From IMG/VR virus record IMGVR_UViG_3300026097_000078, positions 1 through 28,083 of that record: a DNA stretch of 28,083 bases; one strand, written 5' to 3'. Origin of the DNA: a virus. The notes under the pieces are model-generated. The model did not search any database, was not told the origin of the DNA, and saw nothing but the letters and a program-made list of their open reading frames with translations. Shown piece after piece: positions 2,374 through 3,610 of this stretch. Positions within the stretch are counted from its first letter, which is position 1. Each line of letters starts with the position of its first letter. The position numbers and the translations under genes are program-made.

Positions 2374-2558
2374 GAATACACCCGCCCTGCCTCTTAACAA
2401 TGCACACTGCGGCGCCTACACCCAAGGGCGGTAGGGTAAATGCTGTATAGATTGGTTGACTATACGGAGTGGTGAGTCTAGACTGAGTTTGTAAGCCCTG
2501 TGTGTACAGCAGGCAGATAATGAGGATAAGGATCGCAAGGTCGACTCCCTCACTTTAT
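2374..2558 (+). other. Structured gene-free segment within the tRNA array
   Basis: 185 nt without a convincing ORF, lying between tRNA-Ser and tRNA-Gly. It is dense in potential RNA structure. A 7-bp GC-rich helix can form between 2382-2388 and 2425-2431, and a competing 7-bp helix between 2385-2391 and 2430-2436. An 8-bp hairpin forms at 2443-2450/2460-2467. CTGT/ACAG forms at 2498-2501/2506-2509. A GATC-GCAA-GGTC hairpin with a GNRA loop (2531-2542) sits inside a TGAGG/CCTCA stem (2521-2525/2548-2552). No canonical tRNA cloverleaf fits. It may be a small non-coding RNA, a processing spacer or a decayed tRNA. Confidence 0.4.
2456..2484 (+). promoter_or_regulatory. Possible sigma70-type promoter
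   Basis: TTGACT (2456-2461), a 17-nt spacer and TAGACT (2479-2484). The -35 is good and the -10 matches four of six consensus bases. It would start transcription just before the GNRA-hairpin part of the tRNA spacer and tRNA-Gly. The -35 box overlaps the 3' arm of a hairpin, which weakens the call. Confidence 0.35.
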
Positions 2559-3405: not shown

Positions 3406-3610
3406 AGTAGCACAAAGACGAGCAGTATTTGCCGAACTCAAACCCTACTGCTTCCATGCTGGTGAAAATGACTACATGGAGGTCACTGAGTGGAGCAATG
3501 GCGAAGGGTTTGACATTGTGATCGATCGCAAAGGCGACACAGAACGGTTTAGTCTTACTCACGGTGAGCTGGAACTGCTCCAGGTTTTGTTAAACTGGAA
3601 AGGTGAGTGA
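3392..3610 (+). CDS. Small phage orphan
   Basis: 72 aa with tandem ATG codons at 3392 and 3395 and a CGGAG ribosome site about 6 nt upstream. Acidic protein with an alternating strand-like middle (YMEVTEWSNGEGFDIVIDRKG) and a helical C-terminus (LTHGELELLQVLLNWKGE). I do not recognise a domain. It overlaps the upstream gene by 14 nt and joins the next gene through TGATG at 3608-3612. Confidence 0.7.
   Translation: MMSIEVAQRRAVFAELKPYCFHAGENDYMEVTEWSNGEGFDIVIDRKGDTERFSLTHGELELLQVLLNWKGE

Follow-up and report, generated by a model that had tools for sequence, protein, structure and literature searches.

What occupies the 185 nt between two neighbouring tRNA genes in a phage tRNA array? The window (the whole stretch of DNA analysed here, a viral record of 28,083 nucleotides) carries phage genes, among them those for a Clp-type protease, a WYL_2 protein, a DNA ligase and tail proteins, and it has an array of four tRNAs (Ser, Gly, Trp and Cys) at positions 2283-2832. 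ARAGORN and Rfam place tRNA-Ser(gct) at 2283-2373 and tRNA-Gly(tcc) at 2559-2632, both on the plus strand, and the ARAGORN positions bear out the 185-nt interval (2374-2558) that the original prediction had picked out between them. The segment is gene-free, as had been claimed (there is no ORF of at least 60 aa within it), and its GC content is 50%, compared with 39.5% for the whole 28-kb window. Because tRNA-Ser and tRNA-Gly are usually 1-8 nt apart in relatives (22 of 30 related loci, not all of which are independent), the segment is probably an insertion between them, judging from these sequence comparisons.

The statement that no tRNA cloverleaf fits also holds: tRNA-Ser and class-I tRNA covariance models run on the segment with filters off gave at best 1.5 bits (E 2.5; R1) and 1.0 bit (E 6.4-6.5; R2), and nhmmer with a tRNA profile gave no match. 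A promoter had been suggested at 2456-2484; a 9/12 site is present at that place, but it is one of three such sites in 1.5 kb, where 2.9 are expected. Beyond the segment, a strong sigma-70-like promoter (TTGACA-16-TATACT, 11/12) lies at 2640-2667, just 5' of tRNA-Trp, and similar promoter-like sites precede tRNAs in some related arrays.

The folding energy of the segment is ordinary (z 0.15; 111 of 200 shuffles were equally stable), and the segment has no more 7-bp helices or 8-bp hairpins than chance would give (the fraction among 500 shuffles is 0.28 for the helices and 0.42 for the hairpins); the occurrence of two GC-rich 7-bp helices is mildly unusual (fraction 0.026 of 500 shuffles). The energy test and helix counts alone would have given a wrong negative for this segment (below). 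BLAST with the segment gave no match among 100 related-phage loci and 50 whole viral records, nor in INPHARED and PLSDB, and when set against seven spacers of relatives that are GC-rich or structured, the segment is no more similar to them than shuffles are.

Homologues and conserved structure

A scan of IMG/VR with an exact 17-mer from the 3' half of the segment yielded two true homologues (L155 and L157) and one chance match (L156). One other 17-mer scan yielded just a chance match (L154), no viral or genome contig contained the exact 23- to 27-mers taken elsewhere in the segment or a 25-mer from tRNA-Gly, and a 21-mer of the 3' core described below was absent from the genome contigs. By blastn, L155 matches the segment at 82% over 180 nt (E 6e-41) and L157 at 84% over 128 nt plus a 38-nt piece. 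These are the two full-length homologues known, one of them on an 8-kb contig, and with them the conserved part of the segment runs from ~2378 to 2556 on the plus strand; 136/177 (L155) and 145/176 (L157) aligned positions are identical to the window, and the middle of the RNA is variable among the three. Neither homologue lies beside a tRNA: the nearest is ~1 kb downstream in L155 (the only tRNA in its fetched 7 kb) and ~6.6 kb away in L157, and tblastx of the fetched DNA on either side of the RNA gave a single weak protein-level match between the window and L157, and no match to L155. Since the homologues do not adjoin tRNAs and the flanks are barely shared, the RNA seems to travel independently of its neighbours.

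Is a secondary structure conserved among the three sequences? In their alignment (A5) a five-helix structure has 96.2% of its cells paired and 7 pairs changed on both sides, compared with a shuffle mean of 3.0 (the observed count was reached by 1 of 500 shuffles), counts that lean towards the structure because the alignment has just three sequences and the choice of helices was made with the RNAalifold result in view. When the structure is slid by 1-3 columns, pairing drops to 30-49%.

The elements of this structure, all on the plus strand, are as follows: The 5' hairpin (2383-2414), separated from tRNA-Ser by 9 nt, has an outer stem CGCC/GGCG (2383-2386/2411-2414), an inner stem TGC/GCA (2388-2390/2402-2404), the loop CTCTTAACAAT (2391-2401) and a 3' bulge at about 2405-2410, and its inner stem shows a compensatory change, being TGC/GCA in the window versus AGC/GCT in L157. 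The predicted 8-bp hairpin at 2443-2467 (2443-2450/2460-2467) is real and has been maintained through two-sided changes in L155 and L157; in its helix 4 of 10 pairs have changed on both sides and 90% of cells are paired over the three sequences. It is followed by a near-invariant 3' core of 46 nt (2482-2527), identical at 45/46 positions between the window and L155, 45/46 between the window and L157 and 46/46 between L155 and L157, which is in no Rfam family. The GNRA-loop hairpin inside a further stem (2521-2552), also anticipated from the single sequence, is maintained in the same way: the outer stem (2521-2525/2548-2552) is invariant, and the inner stem (2531-2534/2539-2542) keeps its pairing through changes of GC to UA and AU to GC. 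Its tetraloop is GCAA in the window and GAAA in L155, and L157 reads TGT-TTCG-GCA by eye. A possible upstream repeat of the 3' domain in L157 or L155 was not significant.

The helices named in the original prediction are all present in the sequence at coordinates exact or within 1 nt. The two mutually exclusive GC-rich helices among them, from which a switch had been proposed, are broken in both homologues: the first (2382-2388/2425-2431) loses 5 of 7 pairs in L155 and 4 of 7 in L157, and the second (2385-2391/2430-2436) loses 3 of 7 in each. As neither is conserved, a switch or riboswitch is unsupported, and the real 5' element is the two-stem hairpin at 2383-2414, not the GC helices.

Could the segment instead be an HDV-like theta ribozyme that trims the 3' trailer of tRNA-Ser? 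P1 of theta ribozymes begins with G, and we took membership to mean a P1 starting with G no more than 5 nt from the tRNA end and a catalytic C in J4/2. Theta ribozymes have been counted as tRNA-associated if a tRNA lies within 5 nt of the cleavage site (PMC10879173). A loose descriptor does find 22 nested matches in 2367-2558, above the number in each of 60 shuffles, but all 22 begin with a letter other than G and more than 5 nt from the tRNA end, and the matches shown rely on helices that the homologues do not support. This candidate was rejected on the starts of all 22 loose matches, and we regard it as barely credible.

The suggestion of a decayed tRNA fares similarly. An ungapped tRNA-Ser profile scores 22.5 bits at 2541-2556 (a score that 1 of 300 shuffles and 2 of 300 real pieces also attain), and these letters might be the scar of an older, second tRNA-Ser that stood 1-8 nt before tRNA-Gly, the spacing seen in the 22 related loci above. 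The same letters are, however, present within a paired hairpin in L155, whose fetched 7 kb contains no tRNA-Ser, and the covariance models yield no tRNA. Because 2541-2556 is conserved in L155 without an adjoining tRNA, it belongs to the 3' hairpin of the RNA itself. The scar idea, to which we give next to no credence, was dropped on finding the same 3' end away from tRNA-Ser in L155 and L157.

Conservation and covariation in relatives, the check that had been proposed for the segment, were both found in L155 and L157, and together with the Rfam family relation described below they leave little doubt that the segment is a real, conserved phage RNA. What had been observed from the single sequence is thus confirmed in part (the interval, the 8-bp hairpin and the GNRA hairpin stand, the alternative GC helices do not), and its interpretation is supported in part, as a small phage RNA and not as a switch or a decayed tRNA.

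Relation to the abiF RNA and the search for a toxin gene

The 5' part of L157 scores 45 bits against the Rfam abiF RNA (RF03085), above the curated cut-off of 37, and the hairpins of the window (2383-2414) and of L155 give partial matches below that cut-off (20.2 bits, single-family E 0.0067, and 20.6 bits, single-family E 0.0052, respectively). We also aligned 15 abiF RNAs of other phages that had been found by BLAST and scored with RF03085 (alignment A6). Their stems covary (90.7% of cells paired and 22 cells changed on both sides, compared with a shuffle mean of 8.0; 0 of 500 shuffles reached this), and a model (R3) was built from these 15 with the window, L155 and L157 excluded. R3 matches the window hairpin at 24.4 bits (E 7.3e-6), the best match in the 28 kb (the next has E 0.058), over model positions 9-40 of 49 with all drawn pairs standard; by this model the window has the outer and inner stems with an 11-nt conserved loop by which we recognised an abiF RNA. 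Among 96 of the fetched loci R3 finds L157 (E 3e-9) and L155 (E 3e-6), and every other match has E 0.03 or above. A 17.5-bit R3 match at L002:6185-6222 reads as a terminator-like hairpin and was not counted as an abiF RNA.

The features that the window shares with RF03085 are the outer stem, the inner 3-bp stem (TGC/GCA or AGC/GCU), the 3' bulge and the 11-nt loop of the CUCUYAACRAU type. It differs in that its outer stem has 4 bp rather than the family's ~7, and at the inter-stem position where all 15 phage copies have A, the window and L155 have C (L157 has A). The closest abiF copies by eye are those of PZL-Ah8 and CGphi29 (GCACACTTTGGCG against GCACACTGCGGCG). We are highly confident that the window RNA is related to the abiF RNA.

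AbiF is described as a type III toxin, a HEPN RNase that is silenced by RNA (the antitoxin AbiFr), functions in abortive infection and is regarded as the ancestor of Cas13 (PMC12737573). RCd22 of C. difficile, which has two abiF motifs, is reported to bind AbiF directly and thereby neutralise it both in cis and in trans, with stem pairing required (PMC12373285). The window RNA differs from these systems in having no AbiF gene that we could find, an extra conserved 3' domain and a position in a tRNA array.

Do phages that carry abiF RNAs also carry the toxin? We searched six frames of whole records for the AbiF family, Abi_2 (PF07751). There are 0 matches in the 28-kb window (G000), G051 and G052, which are fragments, so that this result is not final for the whole genomes; since the window is such a fragment, an AbiF gene may lie elsewhere in its genome. 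Two motif sequences, L155 and L157 served as BLAST queries to find phages with abiF RNAs, and our count took in a selection of 15 of the records listed by these searches together with phage sk1. Eight of the first 20 viral records have an abiF match (6 above the cut-off) and 0 of 20 have Abi_2 above its cut-off (G002, which is without an abiF match, has a 16-bit Abi_2 fragment with stops); 10 of 10 further phage records have an abiF RNA (6 above the cut-off) and 0 of 10 have Abi_2. In total, 18 viral records have an abiF match at E 0.1 or better, and none of these has Abi_2 above the cut-off. The 12 with an above-cut-off abiF RNA (Acj61, CRP-143, CGphi29, PZL-Ah8, T7-Ah, G052, which is the record of L157, Thibault, S-SZBM1, PZL-Ah152, S-CREM1, S-SRM01 and PT2) represent fewer independent lineages because records of the same group are closely related (e.g., four Aeromonas phages); all but CGphi29 and G052 (10 of 12) are described as complete genomes.

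The positive control consisted of 4 of the 16 listed plasmid records, all four with an abiF RNA. Three have Abi_2 at 171-190 bits, and in two of those an annotated 'Abi family protein' starts ~20 nt past the abiF match; in pT75, also one of the three, the abiF RNA scores 36.7 bits, just under the cut-off. The Piscirickettsia salmonis plasmid NZ_CP039222.1 has a 54.6-bit abiF RNA at 3565-3601 that adjoins IS6 transposases, and no Abi_2 in the record. E. coli genomes searched with one abiF motif gave no match. The lactococcal phage sk1 is said, by the title of a paper, to be the source of a region that protects from AbiF; it has no abiF RNA match at E 10.

The window RNA might be what remains of an AbiF toxin-antitoxin module that was captured and then lost its toxin gene, the RNA being functionless or passively kept. 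Capture would be an easy source, as the plasmid abiF copies directly precede Abi_2 genes. The near-invariant 3' core and the compensatory changes point instead to selection, and the solitary state is common to 18 viral records of several families, a repetition not expected from decay; we therefore consider such a remnant quite improbable.

A putative role against host AbiF

What might a phage gain from an abiF RNA alone? In a lytic phage that has the abiF RNA alone there is no phage toxin for it to control, so the simplest use of the RNA would be to restrain the AbiF of the host. Our favoured reading, which we hold with modest confidence, is that the window RNA is a phage-borne antitoxin mimic against host AbiF, and we infer that it would function as follows: The segment would encode a small structured RNA made up of the abiF-type hairpin and then two more conserved elements. 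This RNA would probably be co-transcribed with the tRNAs of the array, and from its position it could be released by tRNA processing, that is, by 3' trimming after tRNA-Ser and cleavage by RNase P where tRNA-Gly begins. With just 2 nt between the conserved part and tRNA-Gly, the 3' end of the RNA would be the product of that RNase P cleavage. During infection the RNA would bind host AbiF and hold this abortive-infection toxin inactive.

Phages are known to use antitoxin mimics and RNA decoys against host defences, for example the ToxI pseudo-antitoxin and RNA anti-CRISPRs. The window RNA would be like these in that the phage would provide an RNA that inhibits a defence enzyme while lacking the enzyme itself, and unlike them in its toxin family, its fold and the putative nature of its activity. 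A closer parallel is the published abiF sRNA of cyanophage S-CREM1, whose motif is reported to occur also in Rfam sequences from three phage and 136 bacterial genomes (PMC9964418) and whose role a 2025 review, in restating it, calls unconfirmed (PMC12197685). As in the window, the S-CREM1 abiF RNA is among tRNA genes in a record without Abi_2. It is a 37-nt hairpin that scores 52.2 bits, above the cut-off, whereas the window hairpin is below the cut-off and comes with a 3' core. This placement recurs: the S-CREM1 copy lies between tRNA-Asn and tRNA-Gly and that of S-SZBM1 between tRNA-Pro and tRNA-Ala, each 4 nt before the next tRNA. As its next tRNA starts 4 nt after the hairpin, S-CREM1 has no room for the 3' core.

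The best-conserved part of the window RNA is the 3' core, and the task of the RNA may differ from AbiF binding. It could be a conserved phage regulatory or protein-binding RNA with a borrowed abiF-like hairpin, whose main job resides in the 3' core and does not involve AbiF. In keeping with this, the core (2482-2527) outdoes the abiF part in conservation (45/46 versus 28/34 identity to L157) and belongs to no Rfam family, and the abiF part of the window is divergent. Against it, the abiF loop and both stems persist in each of the three homologues and show a compensatory change, and unrelated phages hold solitary abiF RNAs in which BLAST with the segment found no 3' core. Since solitary copies recur in unrelated phages without a match to the core, the abiF hairpin alone seems worth keeping, and we think the borrowed-hairpin explanation unlikely. 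The 3' core might act as a further protein-binding module or as a stabiliser, or it might even be the most important part.

More tentatively than for the window RNA itself, we propose that lytic phages of several families carry toxin-less abiF RNAs as anti-AbiF mimics and that some, the window included, may keep them in a tRNA array for release by host tRNA processing; the window version would add a second, undescribed module with the near-invariant 46-nt core, possibly directed against a second defence protein. The literature searched (most subscription papers lay outside it) contained no proposal of an anti-AbiF role for solitary phage abiF RNAs. A phage antidote without the toxin would, if true, be an RNA counter-defence against a Cas13-like RNase, would account for some unexplained spacers in phage tRNA arrays and would provide an assay for the 3' core.

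Other RNA-like elements in related tRNA arrays

A conserved element just 5' of tRNA-Trp(-Pro)(-Cys) was seen in related arrays (e.g., L003:3693-3890, L027:7371-7577, L013:7320-7518 and L026:5789-5990); it is absent from the corresponding place in the window. Its parts are, in order, a promoter, an RBS, a mini-ORF of ~19-22 codons and an intrinsic terminator. The mini-ORF, found in 26 of 28 loci with BLAST matches, has Cys, Trp and Pro codons and an end that is mostly GMS. Pairing between the regions of the start and stop codons is backed by covariation in an alignment of 19 copies (columns 7-80 are GC in 10 and AT in 9; columns 12-75 are TA in 10 and CG in 8), and the element looks like a leader peptide or attenuator that reads the codons of the following tRNAs.

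A 67-nt conserved hairpin RNA (L004:3485-3551, core ACAGATCTGATAAACTGGGAGTGT) mostly lies immediately 5' of tRNA-Ser; it is also present in L003, L008, L009, L010, L014, L015, L033, L034 and L036-L038, and Rfam gave it no match reaching the gathering score in the loci that were scanned. The tRNA array of another related phage contains a GOLLD RNA (L020:7346-7810, 201 bits) that encloses tRNA-Asn. Two further spacers in tRNA arrays fold well below their shuffles, L017:6483-6714 (232 nt, GC 52%, z -3.3) and L008:3024-3106 (83 nt, z -7.2), and these are possibly further phage RNAs.
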